In this document: positions 1,561 through 39,407 of the stretch, piece by piece | Layout of the letters: each line of letters opens with the position of its first letter | Position numbering within the stretch: the first letter of the stretch is position 1 | NCBI GenBank assembly: GCA_944385705.1 | Contig: CALWYF010000020.1 | Location: 1-39,407 of the forward strand | Reading direction: 5' to 3' | Source of the DNA: an uncultured Oscillospiraceae bacterium | Lineage (GTDB): Bacteria > Bacillota > Clostridia > Oscillospirales > Oscillospiraceae | Length of the DNA stretch: 39,407 bases | The notes under the pieces: generated by a model | Seen by the model: the letters and a program-made list of their open reading frames with translations, nothing else | Told to the model about the DNA's origin: nothing | Database searches by the model: none | Program-made: the position numbers and the translations under genes

Positions 1561-3612
1561 ATGAGCAAGGATTTTGTAAATTACGGCATGCACGAGCCGG
1601 ATGACGACGTAAAGATATACAAGCCCGACGAGCGCAGAGAAGCTCCGGTGCTCAGGTCTGCTCCAGTTGAGAGCATCGAGAGAGAATACACAGAGAAATC
1701 CGAGCAGATCGAGTCTGTGGATCGTCCTGCGCAAAAACGTACTGTCCGCAGGAAAGAGGTAAGAAAATACAGGGAGCTGCGCGCAGGAGATATCGCAGTG
1801 CCTCTGCTTGCGGCTGCGGTCTTTGCTGTTCTCTGGTTTTTGCCCACCACCGGCTGGCTCAGGACACTGAGTTTCCTGCTGCCCTATTTTATAGCCGGAT
1901 TTGACGTGATATTAAAAGCCCTGGAGCGCATTTCCCAAAAGGAGTTTTTTAGCGAGGCTCTTGCCTGCACTCTTGCTTCCATTGCGGCTTACGCCATAGG
2001 CCAGTATTTTGCAGCGGTGCTGATAATGCTCCTCTTCAGGCTGTGCCACATAATAGAATCCTATGCCGTCAGGCGGGGGAGAAAACAGCTTTCAGAGCTT
2101 TTGAGCATAAGGCCGGACAGCGCAAGCGTGGAAACTGCGGAGGGTGTGCTTTCCGTTACCCCGGACTATGTTAATGTAGGGGACATCATTCTTGTGGAGC
2201 CGGGGGAGCGCATACCCCTTGACGGAGTGATAGTGGAAGGCATAAGCACAATAGACTGTTCACCCCTTGCCGGTAAGACGGAGCCTGTGGCGGTCACCAC
2301 TGGGTATAGGGTACTTTCCGGATGTATAAATATCACAAGTCCTCTTAGAATAAGGGCCGACAGAAGCTACGCCGATTCCACAGTGAGTAAAATACTGAGG
2401 CTGGCGGAAAATGCCCCGGAAAATAAATCCAGGCAGGAAAAGCTTATTGCCGCCTTTGGAAAGTATTTTACTCCCGGCGTTCTGGTTTTGGCAGTACTTA
2501 TTGGCCTTGTGCCGCCCATATTCAACGGCCAGTGGCTGGAGTACATACAAAGGGGAGCCGTATTCCTGCTGATATCCTGTCCCAGCTCTATGGTGCTGTC
2601 GGTGCCTCTTGCATATTTTGGCGGTCTGGGAAGCGCAGTGGAAAACGGGGTTCTGATAAAAGGCTTTGACTATCTGGAAAGCCTTGCCAATGCGGATACC
2701 TTTGTATTTGAAAAAACCGGCACCATAACGGAAGGCAAATTTGCTGTGACCGATGTTGTACCTGAGGGGCTGGGGGAGAGAGAACTGCTGGGCATTGCGG
2801 CAACAGCTGAAATGTACTCCCAGCACCCCATAGCAAGAGCCCTGAGGCAGGCCAGCAGCGCCATTGTGGATGCCAAGGATGTAAGGGCGGAGGACATCCC
2901 CGGACGAGGTGTAAGAGCCTATATAGGCAGCAAAGAGGTGCTGGTGGGCAATGCCGCCCTTCTGGAGGAAAACGGCATCGGATATAAGGTGCCCAACCGC
3001 AGCGGCTCGGCTGTGCATGTGGCGGTAGACAGAAGATACTGCGGACACATCCTGGTTAGCGACAGAGTGCGCCGGGGCGCCTTTGACGCTCTGGAGAATA
3101 TGCGTGTCCAGGGAGTGACAAAGACCGTAATGCTCACCGGAGACGTGCTCTCCGTGGCAAGGCCTTTGGGTTCAAAGCTGAATTTTGACATGCTGAAGGC
3201 AGAGCTCAGGCCGGAGGATAAGCTTGCAGCCGTGGACTACCTCATTACCAACAAGGGCGGAATAGGTACAGTGGCCTTCGTAGGTGACGGCGTCAGTGAT
3301 GCGCCGGTCCTGCAGAGGGCTGATGTTGGAATAGTCATGGGGGCAATGAATTGCCAAGAGGCTTTTGAAAATGCCGATGTACTTATTATGGACGAAAACA
3401 TCGGCAAACTGCCTTTGGCGGTGAAAATGGCCAGGTTCACCCACTTTATCGTCAAGGAAAACACGGGCCTGGCCCTGATTGCAAAATTTGCCCTGCTGGC
3501 GGGCAGCGCTCTTGGCTTTGTTCCAATCGCCGCAGCTGCGGTAGTAGACAGCGGCGTTGTGATATTCAGCCTTATTAATTCGCTTAGAACTATGAAGTCA
3601 TGGAAGGAGTAA
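1561..3612 (+). CDS. P1B-type ATPase-like membrane protein with altered catalytic motifs
   Basis: A 683-residue homologue of zinc/cadmium P1B-ATPases without an N-terminal metal-binding domain; residues 1-75 are a charged tail. Fold landmarks are present: HP (422-423), TGD (526-528), last-helix Lys642 and Asp663, which in ZntA-type pumps bind zinc. Several key motifs deviate. The DKTGT phosphorylation motif is EKTGT (384-388), so the Asp that forms the phosphoenzyme is Glu. The actuator TGES is AGKT (237-240), losing the dephosphorylation Glu. CPC is CPS (340-342). GDGxND is GDGVSD (575-580). In characterised P-type ATPases Asp-to-Glu at this site blocks phosphorylation, so active pumping is doubtful. 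Alternatives are a sensor, scaffold or passive metal-binding protein. It is co-transcribed with the zinc-type ArsR repressor and a nitroreductase, ribosome binding site GAGGAG. The reading frame is intact, so this is not an obvious pseudogene. Confidence 0.88.
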   Translation: MSKDFVNYGMHEPDDDVKIYKPDERREAPVLRSAPVESIEREYTEKSEQIESVDRPAQKRTVRRKEVRKYRELRAGDIAVPLLAAAVFAVLWFLPTTGWLRTLSFLLPYFIAGFDVILKALERISQKEFFSEALACTLASIAAYAIGQYFAAVLIMLLFRLCHIIESYAVRRGRKQLSELLSIRPDSASVETAEGVLSVTPDYVNVGDIILVEPGERIPLDGVIVEGISTIDCSPLAGKTEPVAVTTGYRVLSGCINITSPLRIRADRSYADSTVSKILRLAENAPENKSRQEKLIAAFGKYFTPGVLVLAVLIGLVPPIFNGQWLEYIQRGAVFLLISCPSSMVLSVPLAYFGGLGSAVENGVLIKGFDYLESLANADTFVFEKTGTITEGKFAVTDVVPEGLGERELLGIAATAEMYSQHPIARALRQASSAIVDAKDVRAEDIPGRGVRAYIGSKEVLVGNAALLEENGIGYKVPNRSGSAVHVAVDRRYCGHILVSDRVRRGAFDALENMRVQGVTKTVMLTGDVLSVARPLGSKLNFDMLKAELRPEDKLAAVDYLITNKGGIGTVAFVGDGVSDAPVLQRADVGIVMGAMNCQEAFENADVLIMDENIGKLPLAVKMARFTHFIVKENTGLALIAKFALLAGSALGFVPIAAAAVVDSGVVIFSLINSLRTMKSWKE

Positions 3613-35698: not shown

Positions 35699-36703
35699 TC
35701 AGCTGTCCTCCTCAATGTCTGCTTTGGTCTTACGACCTATTGGATTGGCCATGGCAGCTTCGTGAAGAGCAGCATTATCCAGATGGGTATATATCTGAGT
35801 AGTATTCAGGTTACTGTGGCCCAAAACCTCCTGTAAGGCTCTGGTATCAACGCCATTTTTCAGCATAAGCGTTGCGGCGGTATGGCGGAGCTTATGGGGA
35901 GAATAGCGGCTGGCATCCAGTCCGGCCTGCAGGAGCTTTTTGTCTACCATTTTTTGTACACCTCGGACGCTGATGCGCCTATGGTCTCTACTGATAAAAA
36001 GGGCGTTCCTGTCCTCAGGTACAATGTTCTCCGGTTCCCGAACAGCAAGGTAGTCATCTATAGCCTCCCGGCAGCCCTGGGCAAAGTAAATCATACGTTC
36101 CTTATTGCCTTTGCCCACAACTCTAAGGTGATCATCATAGATATCCGATACATTGAGGGAAACCAGCTCCGAGACACGCATACCGCAGGACATGAAGAGC
36201 ATTAGTATACAGTAATCCCTGAGGGCAAAGGGGCCGTCGCAAACGGAGAGTAATCTTTCGCATTCTGCCTCTTCCAAATACCTGGGAAGCAAATTGGGGC
36301 GTTTAGGCATGTCAAGTTCTTGACAAATATTAAAGTCCAATAAATGGCGTTTTACCGTGAGATAATTATAGAATGATTTTACGGAGGAGGTACGGCGGCA
36401 ACGGCTGGCTGCCGACAAAGACCTGTTGGAACCGCTCATCTCAGGGGAGAAAGACTGGTATCTATAGAGCTCCTCAATACGTATGGATTTGATAAAATCA
36501 ATATCCACGTCGCTGATATCAATTTCGTTAAATGGTGTTTCTGCCGGAACCAAATGCCTCCGCCGCTTGATAAAGCGAAACAGAATTTTTAGATCCAAAT
36601 AGTATCCGGCTACAGTTTTATCCGAATGTCCCCGAACCGTAGAGTGGTATTCCAAAAACTCCATAAGTATATCCGGGGCGTCGTTTATCTGATCTAGGTT
36701 CAT
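35699..36703 (-). CDS. Xer-type tyrosine recombinase
   Basis: A 334-residue recombinase (338 if ATG 36715 is used). The N-terminal SAM-like DNA-binding domain covers about 8-110. The catalytic set is complete: Arg in CGMRVSELVSLN, Lys in VVGKGNKER, HKLRH, GHSNLNTTQ with the second His, and the nucleophile Tyr in QIYTHLD. This is closest to XerC/XerD, the enzymes that resolve chromosome dimers at dif, rather than to phage integrases: no arm-binding domain, no phage genes nearby. A consensus promoter and a dif-like site lie in front of it, the latter inside its leader. The ATG at 36703 is preferred for spacing from AAGGGATGG. Confidence 0.93.
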   Translation of the reverse strand: MNLDQINDAPDILMEFLEYHSTVRGHSDKTVAGYYLDLKILFRFIKRRRHLVPAETPFNEIDISDVDIDFIKSIRIEELYRYQSFSPEMSGSNRSLSAASRCRRTSSVKSFYNYLTVKRHLLDFNICQELDMPKRPNLLPRYLEEAECERLLSVCDGPFALRDYCILMLFMSCGMRVSELVSLNVSDIYDDHLRVVGKGNKERMIYFAQGCREAIDDYLAVREPENIVPEDRNALFISRDHRRISVRGVQKMVDKKLLQAGLDASRYSPHKLRHTAATLMLKNGVDTRALQEVLGHSNLNTTQIYTHLDNAALHEAAMANPIGRKTKADIEEDS

Positions 36704-36736
36704 TATGTTAACCATCCCTTATATTTTATAGTCCTA

Positions 36737-36814: not shown

Positions 36815-36843
36815 ATTATATGGTAAGCAGCCCGAGCTGTCAA
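36815..36843 (-). promoter_or_regulatory. Consensus sigma-A promoter of the recombinase gene
   Basis: On the minus strand: TTGACA (36838-36843), exactly 17 bp, TATAAT (36815-36820). The leader is about 100 bases and contains the hairpin and the dif-like site. Confidence 0.88.
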
Positions 36844-37198: not shown

Positions 37199-37323
37199 AA
37201 CATCCAGATGGCGTAGCCTCAATTGGCATGCCTCCCCTTCCCTTGCGCTTAGGTACTTTCGCTGTGGATGCTGCAAAAGGCTCCAATAGTCCGGCTTTAT
37301 GCCGCGGCTATTGGAGCCTTTTT
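37199..37323 (+). ncRNA. Candidate small RNA with C-rich tract
   Basis: About 125 bases between a promoter and a strong terminator with no open frame. The 5' end ACATCCA (37200-37206) can pair with TGGATGC (37265-37271), closing a domain that contains short GGC/GCC stems (37210-37232) and an unpaired run GCCTCCCCTTCCCTT (about 37229-37244). C-rich loops complementary to Shine-Dalgarno sequences are the seed of several Firmicute regulatory RNAs (FsrA, RsaE/RoxS, CsfG). The terminator (37275-37323) follows. CsfG, conserved in spore formers, is one possible identity that I cannot test here. The strand is inferred from the promoter and T-run. Confidence 0.55.
37275..37323 (+). terminator. Strong terminator, bidirectional
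   Basis: GGCTCCAATAG (37279-37289) / CTATTGGAGCC (37308-37318), perfect 11 bp plus AAAA/TTTT, with an inner CGGC-TTTAT-GCCG hairpin; T5 on the plus strand, T4 on the minus strand. It serves the candidate RNA and the minus-strand gene that stops at 37335. Confidence 0.9.
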
Positions 37324-37334
37324 CATACATGAAG

Positions 37335-38999
37335 TCAGCGACCCATCTTATAGCGCAGAGTGCTTATCAAAGATTCATTAGTCACCCTGATGGTATTCAG
37401 GATGGTTGCAACGGCAGCTACCATATCTATAAATATGGCAAACCACAGGTTGCAGTAGCCGACGATACTCAGGAACACCAGAAGCGCCTTGACTACAAAC
37501 GCAAACAAAGCGTTCTCCACAGCTATATCCTTTACCCTGACGGCAACTTGTTTTGCAAAAGGCAGGTTGTTGATATAGGCGGGATCAACAATGGCGTCGG
37601 CATATTTGCCTTTGCTGCCGACCCTGATATCCACAGCGGCATCGGAGTGGGATTCTATACCGCTGGAATATACAAAGATAACTGCGCCTTTTTCTCTCTT
37701 TGCTATCTCGCTGATAATGCTGAGCTTCTTCTCAGTGTCGCACTGGGCATACATCTCATTGAAATTCATAAGCTCGGCAAACTGCTGCCCCACTTCCTTA
37801 CTGTCTTCAGTAAGGAGAATGCAGCGGTTTATACCCACAGCCTTCATTTCAGGAATAAGATTTTCGGTTTCTTCATTTACATCAGAGGAAACCACTACTT
37901 TGCCCACGTACTTATTGGCTACGACCATATAATAAGCCTGGCCGATAGCGGCATTGTCATCAGGCAGTTCCACTTCCCTGCTGGAATAAAGTTCCCGGGT
38001 ACCAAACGAGACCGGTATCCCGTCGATACTCAATTCCATACCGTAGCCGGGGATATCCCGGAAGTCGGAGATGACGTCCAGCTTATAGTCCTGGTCAAAG
38101 GCGGCGGAGACTGCCTTGGCAATGGGCTGGTCGGAGTAGTACACCGCATGGGCCACAAAATTCATAAAGGTTGCAGAGTCCAGAATATCCGAATACATGG
38201 CGATTATCCTGGGGCACTCGTCGGCAAAAATGCCGCCCTTATCAAAGATGGCTACGGTGGAATCAGCCATGGCTTCCAGGCTGGAGGCCTTTTCTATAAC
38301 CACTCCCTGCTGGGCACTGTAACACATACCAACAGTAGCTGCCAGAGGTATTGACACGGCAACAGACATTGGCGTGGCAATTAGAATGATTGTAAGAGCC
38401 CGATGGATGGAAACTATATAGGTATAGTTTGTAATCAGCGGCAGTGTAATTGCATAAATCACCGAAAGAATCATTGCAAGCTTCAGGACCGAGCCGGAGC
38501 TGCTTTTCATCACGGATTCTATGGACATAGACGTGGCGTCTTTATCGTTGAGAAGTTCAGCCATGCGGTTTTTTATGCTATCGTCCTGGTAGTTCAGCAA
38601 TTCCAAAGCCGCCTTTTTGGTGTGATCCACGGCGTAATTAATAAGCATAAGGCCAATTTGGTATAGAAGTATAAGCGCAGCACCCTCTATGGCGAAGCCG
38701 ATAAAATACGAAAGGAGGGCAATAAATACCACTACCACAGGGACGGAGAAATAATCCCCTTCCTCAATGGAGTTCATGGCCTGCAAAACGATGTCATAGC
38801 CTGCGGCAACAGCGGCAAGAACAAGGAGGATAATGCTGAGGAACTCAGGCATGCTGATGATAAGCGAGACGGCAAAAATAACTGATGCAACCACCAGACG
38901 GATAACCATCATAGTATTATTATTGGGGATCATGCTTATCAGGTTTTCCGGTTTCTTTTTGACGGCCTCATGCCTGCTTCTTTCCGGTTTTTGACTCAT
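37335..38999 (-). CDS. Degenerate P-type ATPase-like membrane protein lacking the actuator domain
   Basis: A 554-residue relative of P1B-ATPases, paralogous to the protein at 1561-3612. After a basic tail (1-28) come paired helices (about 30-70 and 85-120) clearly similar to that protein. Between residues 130 and 170 only a short linker is left where the actuator domain (PGE..P.DG..TGE) should be. Helix 6 has ATP (208-210) instead of CPC, the phosphorylation motif is DKGGI (253-257) instead of DKTGT, HP is QP (291-292), TGD is TED (397-399) and GDGxND is YSSGIES (444-450). Lys504 and Asp525, counterparts of the zinc-site residues of ZntA helices 7 and 8, remain. It cannot be a normal pump. 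An intact 554-codon frame and a strong ribosome binding site (AGGAGGTGG) argue against a pseudogene. It is 35 bp downstream of fba. Confidence 0.88.
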   Translation of the reverse strand: MSQKPERSRHEAVKKKPENLISMIPNNNTMMVIRLVVASVIFAVSLIISMPEFLSIILLVLAAVAAGYDIVLQAMNSIEEGDYFSVPVVVVFIALLSYFIGFAIEGAALILLYQIGLMLINYAVDHTKKAALELLNYQDDSIKNRMAELLNDKDATSMSIESVMKSSSGSVLKLAMILSVIYAITLPLITNYTYIVSIHRALTIILIATPMSVAVSIPLAATVGMCYSAQQGVVIEKASSLEAMADSTVAIFDKGGIFADECPRIIAMYSDILDSATFMNFVAHAVYYSDQPIAKAVSAAFDQDYKLDVISDFRDIPGYGMELSIDGIPVSFGTRELYSSREVELPDDNAAIGQAYYMVVANKYVGKVVVSSDVNEETENLIPEMKAVGINRCILLTEDSKEVGQQFAELMNFNEMYAQCDTEKKLSIISEIAKREKGAVIFVYSSGIESHSDAAVDIRVGSKGKYADAIVDPAYINNLPFAKQVAVRVKDIAVENALFAFVVKALLVFLSIVGYCNLWFAIFIDMVAAVATILNTIRVTNESLISTLRYKMGR

Positions 39000-39034
39000 T
39001 TTGCCACCTCCTGTTTTTGCTTATTGAAAGATGC

Positions 39035-39407
39035 TCAGGCCTTTCCGTCGCAGCCGAGGACATCCACGATCTTATGCTTTACCATTTCCTTGATGGCGGT
39101 ACGGGCCGGCCCAAGGTACTGGCGGGGGTCAAAATGATCGGGATGATCGTTAAAGTACTTCCTTATGGTAGCTGTCATGGCAAGACGCAGGTCGGAGTCA
39201 ATATTAATCTTGCAGACGGCCATCTTGGCGGCCAAGCGCAGCTGCTCCTCGGGAATGCCGATGGCTCCGGGCATGTTGCCGCCGTTTTCGTTGATCATCT
39301 TCACAAATTCCTGAGGAACGGAAGAAGAACCGTGGAGAACTATGGGGAAGCCGGGCAGACGCTTCTGAACCTCTTCCAGAATGTCCAGACGCAGCTTGGG
39401 ATCGGTG
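39035..39407 (-). CDS. fba: Class II fructose-bisphosphate aldolase, C-terminal part
   Basis: The 3' end of the gene; the 5' part lies beyond the window. The visible 123 residues include LHGSSSVPQEF (phosphate and metal site) and the ending with KINIDSDLRLAMTATIRKYF and HFDPRQYLGPARTAIKEMV, typical of class II FBA. It catalyses the reversible cleavage of fructose 1,6-bisphosphate in glycolysis. The following ATPase-like gene starts 35 bp downstream on the same strand and may be co-transcribed. Confidence 0.95.
   Translation of the reverse strand, partial: TDPKLRLDILEEVQKRLPGFPIVLHGSSSVPQEFVKMINENGGNMPGAIGIPEEQLRLAAKMAVCKINIDSDLRLAMTATIRKYFNDHPDHFDPRQYLGPARTAIKEMVKHKIVDVLGCDGKA

Follow-up and report, generated by a model that had tools for sequence, protein, structure and literature searches.

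What does an intact gene do directly behind the gene of class II fructose-bisphosphate aldolase (fba), if its product resembles a heavy-metal P-type ATPase that lacks the actuator (A) domain and the catalytic motifs? This question is raised by one end of a contig from an uncultured Oscillospiraceae bacterium, of which the whole stretch of 39,407 nucleotides was analysed (hereafter the window). A first-pass annotation of this DNA had proposed a retained family lacking catalytic motifs. In this study, we show that the gene, here called F, represents a real, conserved pseudo-P-type ATPase family of unusual architecture, with members in 73 of the 102 genomes searched from its genus and in other genera, under purifying selection and adjacent to fba, in agreement with that proposal. 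We further consider what such a protein may do in place of pumping.

F (37335..38999, minus strand) begins with ATG and encodes 554 amino acids followed by a stop codon. An AGGAGG ribosome-binding site (39007..39012, minus strand) is located 7 nt ahead of the start codon, and GGAGG-like sites are found upstream of most of the 43 F relatives compared. Concerning family membership, F scores 142.3 bits (E 2.3e-41) with TIGR01525 (NCBIfam; curated cut-off 346.25) and 21.5 bits with PF00122 (Pfam; cut-off 28.1), the latter over profile positions 78-176 only; both family profiles thus match F far above chance, yet below their curated cut-offs. By descent F belongs to the P1B superfamily, as evident from sequence and fold homology across the membrane, P and N domains. 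An AlphaFold2 model from 63 rows (mean pLDDT 86, pTM 0.78) shows a confident P1B fold with eight transmembrane (TM) helices.

The domains follow each other along the minus strand. Residues 28-127 (38619..38918) comprise the first four TM helices with conserved Arg34, Asp69 and Glu105, the last being the equivalent of ZntA Glu202. Residues 128-168 (38496..38618) are a 41-residue remnant at the place where complete-motif P1B ATPases carry a 127-residue actuator-domain stretch; the A domain and its TGE motif are absent. In the TM pair preceding the P domain (residues 169-240; 38280..38495) the CPx metal motif reads ATP (209-211) and not CPC, and CPC occurs in none of the 42 rows of the core clade. 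The first P-domain part (residues 241-276; 38172..38279) has DKGGI for the phosphorylation motif DKTGT, with Asp253-Lys254 retained and both threonines gone. In the N-domain region (residues 277-372; 37884..38171) SDQP replaces SEHP, the histidine of the HP dipeptide being Gln291 (38 of 42 core-clade rows), and the GxG motif is retained (glycines in 42 and 40 of 42). The second P-domain part (residues 373-485; 37545..37883) has TED for TGD and YSSGIE for GDGxND, together with new residues His451 and Asp457. The last TM pair (residues 486-554; 37338..37544) retains N496-x7-K504 and D525-x9-N535. Hereby the first-pass reading of this gene is borne out by alignment in all its letters: an intact 554-codon frame with a strong ribosome binding site, a missing actuator domain, the motifs ATP, DKGGI, QP, TED and YSSGIES, and retained Lys504 and Asp525. 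A divergent F subgroup (L046, L047, L048) shares a short N-terminal motif like SFFVxMxPPKK, which is absent from the F of the window.

Conservation within the core clade is uneven in kind. In the membrane, E105 is found in 41, N496 in 42, K504 in 42 and D525 in 41 of 42 rows. The P1B-2 signature of the last TM pair (N-x7-K and D-x-G-x7-N; motif names as given in PMC6305203) is kept at its N, K, D and N positions in 38-42 of 42 rows, and its G is replaced by A, V or L. In the cytosolic head, position 253 is Asp in 38 and Glu in four of 42 rows, and invariant Asp across the 63 rows of alignment A3; position 425 is Lys in 37 of 42. Moreover, positions 451 and 457 have acquired residues of their own: His and Asp, respectively, in 38 rows each and both together in 38 of 42. 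Each is also present in seven of seven rows of the genera g208, g224 and g231, and the two occur together in none of the 31 other rows. The 13 reference pump rows have L or M at 451 and G at 457, one of them (L155) with GEG for GDG.

The first-pass annotation had held that the idea of a retained family would fall if no other genome carried the gene or if close relatives showed frameshifts. Searches covered 99 genomes (own included) and then, with a 28-row alignment, 102 genomes of the genus. F is carried by 73 of the 102, and by 29 of the 34 genomes with at least 90% completeness and at most 5% contamination; three divergent forms (33-35% identity) have the same layout. A single full-length frame is present in 69 of the 73 carriers. 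In the other four F is in pieces, spread across two contigs in G016 and G054 and broken within a contig in G055 and G482, so that frameshifts in close relatives are mostly absent, with these two of 73 as the exception. Four further genomes (G008, G047, G487, G460) had one stop flagged in the search, yet their extracted frames are full length. Eight of the 29 non-carriers were inspected. Seven (G023, G026, G053, G029, G058, G025, G004) have no fba match either (E up to 1e-40), hence the locus is probably missing from these assemblies; one, G051, is truly without F, its fba being directly followed by a recombinase gene. The case of G051 shows that the aldolase does not require F. Another genome counted as a non-carrier, G003, holds a 72-residue F piece at a contig end. 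The F-fba locus seems to be often dropped in these metagenome assemblies, and the contig of the window also ends inside fba. In the GTDB-220 collection 65 F loci were found, many of them from rumen. They are labelled as uncultured or metagenome-assembled Oscillospiraceae, Ruminococcaceae, Clostridiales or Clostridia, one as Candidatus Limivicinus, and single loci as Eubacterium sp., Lachnospiraceae or just bacterium.

Distinct orthologues sharing 70-97% identity formed 105 pairs, and selection on F was assessed on the 30 closest of these (NG86). dN/dS ranges from 0.010 to 0.159, one value being undefined, and from 0.05 to 0.16 in unsaturated pairs (dS under about 1.3). This comparison, which the first-pass annotation had suggested, reveals purifying selection that is not relaxed. 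By domain (14 pairs; two undefined dS values in the first P-domain part averaged as 0), mean dN is lowest in the N domain (0.046), followed by 0.053 and 0.070 in the P-domain parts, 0.086 in TM1-4, 0.079 in TM5-6 and 0.055 in TM7-8, and highest (0.119) in the linker replacing the A domain. The control gene fba gives dN of 0.000-0.024 in the 11 of these 14 pairs computed. F is constrained throughout, and its cytosolic head is constrained about as much as its membrane part.

The linkage to fba is equally consistent. In the window the 3' part of fba (39035..39407, minus strand), cut by the contig end, precedes F with a gap of 35 nt, and the two genes are, to judge from the sequence, likely on a shared transcript. 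Directly after F lies a hairpin (37275..37322, minus strand; RNA fold -34 kcal/mol, z -6.5), which is absent from the terminator-scan list and may mark where the fba-F unit ends. The remaining 5' part of the aldolase gene is found on contig 84 of the same genome together with a divergent pfp gene for PPi-dependent phosphofructokinase (PPi-PFK). Class II fba is immediately followed by F, in the same orientation, in all 90 distinct loci that show both genes, counted as distinct by their last 200 residues and including other genera, some with an A domain. Seven further loci have no fba within the stretch covered, one of them (L155) being a pump of another genus. A PPi-PFK gene is placed divergently upstream of fba in L157 and, judged from the start sequence, in L164, L141, L154, L151 and L143; L206, L235 and L236, three loci that have fba but no F, carry it behind fba instead.

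Further features near F concern other genes. A perfect sigma-70 consensus, TTGACA-17-TATAAT (36815-36843, minus strand), is located ahead of a gene for a XerC/D-like recombinase (35699-36715). In genus g244 (L149:6725-9426) the gene for an A-less protein is followed by a gene for 223 amino acids and a histidine-kinase gene with a VanS-like match, and genes of these two clusters are near F in L150 and L153 as well.

The position behind fba has been occupied by more than one kind of protein. A survey of fba in the family gave 70 loci, 68 of them with more than 120 nt behind fba. A P1B-type gene follows in 13 of the 68, and no P1B relative was seen behind fba in the other 55, about half of which cover just 1.5 kb there. 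When 400 genomes of the family were searched (best three candidates each), 33 passed, nine of them from the own genus; among the others, 17 match from model positions 6-23 (g202, g250, g244, g191) and seven only from position 128. In a sample of the order (394 genomes, best three candidates each) no other genome exceeded 245 bits, against 864 for the window, and the matches listed start at model position 126 or later. Since this sample missed genera found by the family search, it does not bound the range of F. A complete-motif pump follows fba in g210, and also in g195, there in a frame that opens 276 nt behind fba and belongs to a different lineage. In g208, g53, g224 and g243 the position is taken by proteins whose motifs are broken but which have a stretch of A-domain length; A-less proteins retaining CPC are found in g244 and g191; A-less degenerate proteins are found in the window (g1), g250, g202 and g231, and the A-less proteins of g35 lie on a long branch. 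The relatives of F in g208 (L154:4708-6762, L158, L252) have an A-domain-length stretch, GDES, GDFS or GDTS for TGES, and degenerate P-domain motifs, and are intermediate forms.

Quick trees with SH-aLRT supports were calculated for 80 rows, for 76 rows without four long branches (CAN_L004, two g35 rows and F_g202_L148, also left out of the tree without A-domain columns) and for 28 rows with a simpler model. In the 80-row tree the g35 rows stand beside CAN_L004, a joining which the tool warns may be false. The rows of g1, g250 and g202 form one clade (support 99, 99 and 100 in the 80-, 76- and 28-row trees), g208 pairs with g231 (98, 96, 88) and g244 with g191 (95, 96, 90), the latter pair joining g210 in the 80- and 76-row trees (93, 95) and being unresolved in this respect in the 28-row tree. 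All fba-linked rows except g195 are on one side of a branch with support 100 (76 rows), together with CAN_L155, which does not adjoin fba; without the A-domain columns, the fba-linked rows (59, g195 excepted) are again on one side, with a support of just 73. Both this latter tree and the 28-row tree require three changes for the presence of the A domain. A single loss, with all A-less rows in one clade, was rejected (AU p 1.9e-5; 28 of 80 rows, simple model), and a clade joining g231 with g1, g250 and g202 was not (AU p 0.146). At least two losses of the A domain, and probably three, follow from this. Provided that the tree is correct, His451 and Asp457 arose in the P domain before the A domain was lost, as g208 and g224 retain the A-domain-length stretch.

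Taken together, selection has kept a former zinc-pump protein intact, and this suggests that the protein took up a new job. Having lost TGE along with the A domain, and also the CPC site, GDGxND and the histidine of HP, F should not run a phosphorylation cycle, and from these losses we infer that it no longer pumps. Our preferred reading, to which we assign a probability of roughly 45%, is that F does not pump but acts in the membrane, in connection with glycolysis, as a receptor, regulator or anchor. On this account F goes back to a gene for a heavy-metal P1B ATPase that was placed behind class II fba in an ancestor of several Oscillospiraceae genera, and it has survived as a membrane protein of eight helices bearing a cytosolic head. 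The altered P-domain site (Asp253, Lys425, His451, Asp457) and the N domain may bind a phosphorylated ligand or a partner from the glycolytic unit; candidates are a nucleotide, PPi, a sugar phosphate (FBP) or the aldolase itself. Binding could be relayed to the membrane set Glu105/Lys504/Asp525, whose charges would pass on the signal or hold the fold, and the output would concern glycolysis. Family-wide motif loss, purifying selection that includes the head, the invariable fba linkage with a divergent PPi-PFK gene, the new His451 and Asp457 and the confident P1B-fold model argue for this reading. Against it, operon inertia could by itself maintain the linkage, GxG and the charged membrane residues that were retained would also suit a transporter remnant, G051 carries fba but no F, and no P1B relative was seen behind fba in the 55 family loci, about half of which cover just 1.5 kb there. 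A fuller version, in which zinc pumps of one clade became glycolysis-linked membrane receptors, is rather doubtful as a whole: the site would have been rebuilt around the new His and Asp so that a nucleotide or a phosphorylated metabolite could be read, the actuator domain would then have been shed more than once, and the protein would sense, anchor or gate the aldolase/PPi-PFK step at the membrane.

The near-invariance of E105, N496, K504 and D525 also fits a passive cation or proton pathway, i.e. a facilitator or channel whose ion path is formed by exit-side Glu105, Lys504 and Asp525. In the profile alignment these three fall on E202, K693 and D714 of ZntA, the roles of which are described, with those of C392/C394, in PMC6305203. 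Both metal-site cysteines are gone from F, however, the ZntA funnel residues E184 and E214 face uncharged residues, and D348 faces a position that varies (Glu by consensus, with Lys in the window). Constrained N and P domains would hardly be needed by a mere channel, and the Lys-Asp pair may be structural; we regard a channel as unlikely.

Class II aldolase is a zinc enzyme, and F might instead tune zinc for it as a regulatory partner, e.g. in a dimer, of the complete P1B pumps of the cell. The own genome does have complete-motif P1B genes (contigs 70 and 12), and F resembles the zinc subgroup in fold and in the residues of its last TM pair. P-type pumps, however, act mostly as monomers, and in the loci inspected the gene linked to F is fba and not that of a complete pump; a pump partner is improbable. 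It is very improbable that F still pumps at the expense of ATP in some unusual cycle, with Asp253 in use and the A domain contributed by a different protein: the conservation of Asp253 and Lys425 would suit such a cycle, but CPC, the DKTGT threonines, GDGxND, HP and TGE are all lost. That F is a pseudogene in decay, as the broken frames of G055 and G482 and the long branch of the orthologue pair L172/L173 might indicate, has practically no chance, being ruled out by dN/dS of 0.05-0.16 and the new conserved residues, with full-length frames in 69 of 73 carriers and ribosome sites ahead of most relatives also speaking against it.

Pseudokinases and other pseudoenzymes are well known. Phrase searches of an open-licence library gave no paper on a conserved P-type ATPase relative without an actuator domain, and one may be in print elsewhere; the portion of PMC10654040 available to us names no actuator-less or pseudo P-type ATPase. 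The single position behind fba shows a series that starts with a complete-motif pump and ends with a protein that is degenerate throughout yet still under selection, and one and the same domain was lost repeatedly. This series makes it testable what the P-type fold can do without the pump cycle. Moreover, F is a candidate for a connection between the membrane and glycolysis in bacteria of the gut and rumen.

The window itself offers the first comparison. At 1561-3612 (plus strand) it encodes a second degenerate P1B protein of 683 amino acids (EKTGT, CPS, AGK for TGE). In contrast to F, it retains an A-domain-length stretch, GDG, TGD and HP and does not adjoin fba. The first-pass annotation had grouped both genes as paralogues of one pseudo-ATPase group; this view finds no support, as the 76-row tree places the lineage of 1561-3612 (P4) among ordinary pumps, across a branch with SH-aLRT 100 from F. 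The two genes consequently look like independent degenerations. Four more distant relatives of 1561-3612 in the genus vary in the phosphorylation motif (DKTGA, NKTGT, GKTGT), and GDG is lost in three; this lineage, too, seems to be degenerating, apart from F.

Among solved relatives, the ZntA-type P1B-2 zinc/cadmium ATPases (4UMV/4UMW; TIGR01525, TIGR01512) are the best match of F (profile E 6e-46), and ZntA also gives the best Foldseek E-value with the F model (5e-22), other P1B pumps also being among the best matches. F shares with ZntA the eight TM helices (model), the N/P domain order, the Glu202 equivalent and, in the last TM pair, N-x7-K and D-x9-N; unlike ZntA, it lacks the A domain, CPC, DKTGT, HP, TGD and GDGxND. 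The top TM-score among the 50 matches listed (0.73 by query length) belongs to a CopA-type copper P1B ATPase (7R0G), from which F differs by the absence of CPC and of every catalytic motif. Finally, the SEHP His to Gln exchange at Gln291 (SDQP in the window, SEQP in most relatives) is the same as in human ATP7B H1069Q, found in Wilson disease; the role of H1069 and the frequency of H1069Q are treated in PMC5684295. This likeness is an analogy only, as the exchange in F is one loss among many and no disease allele.
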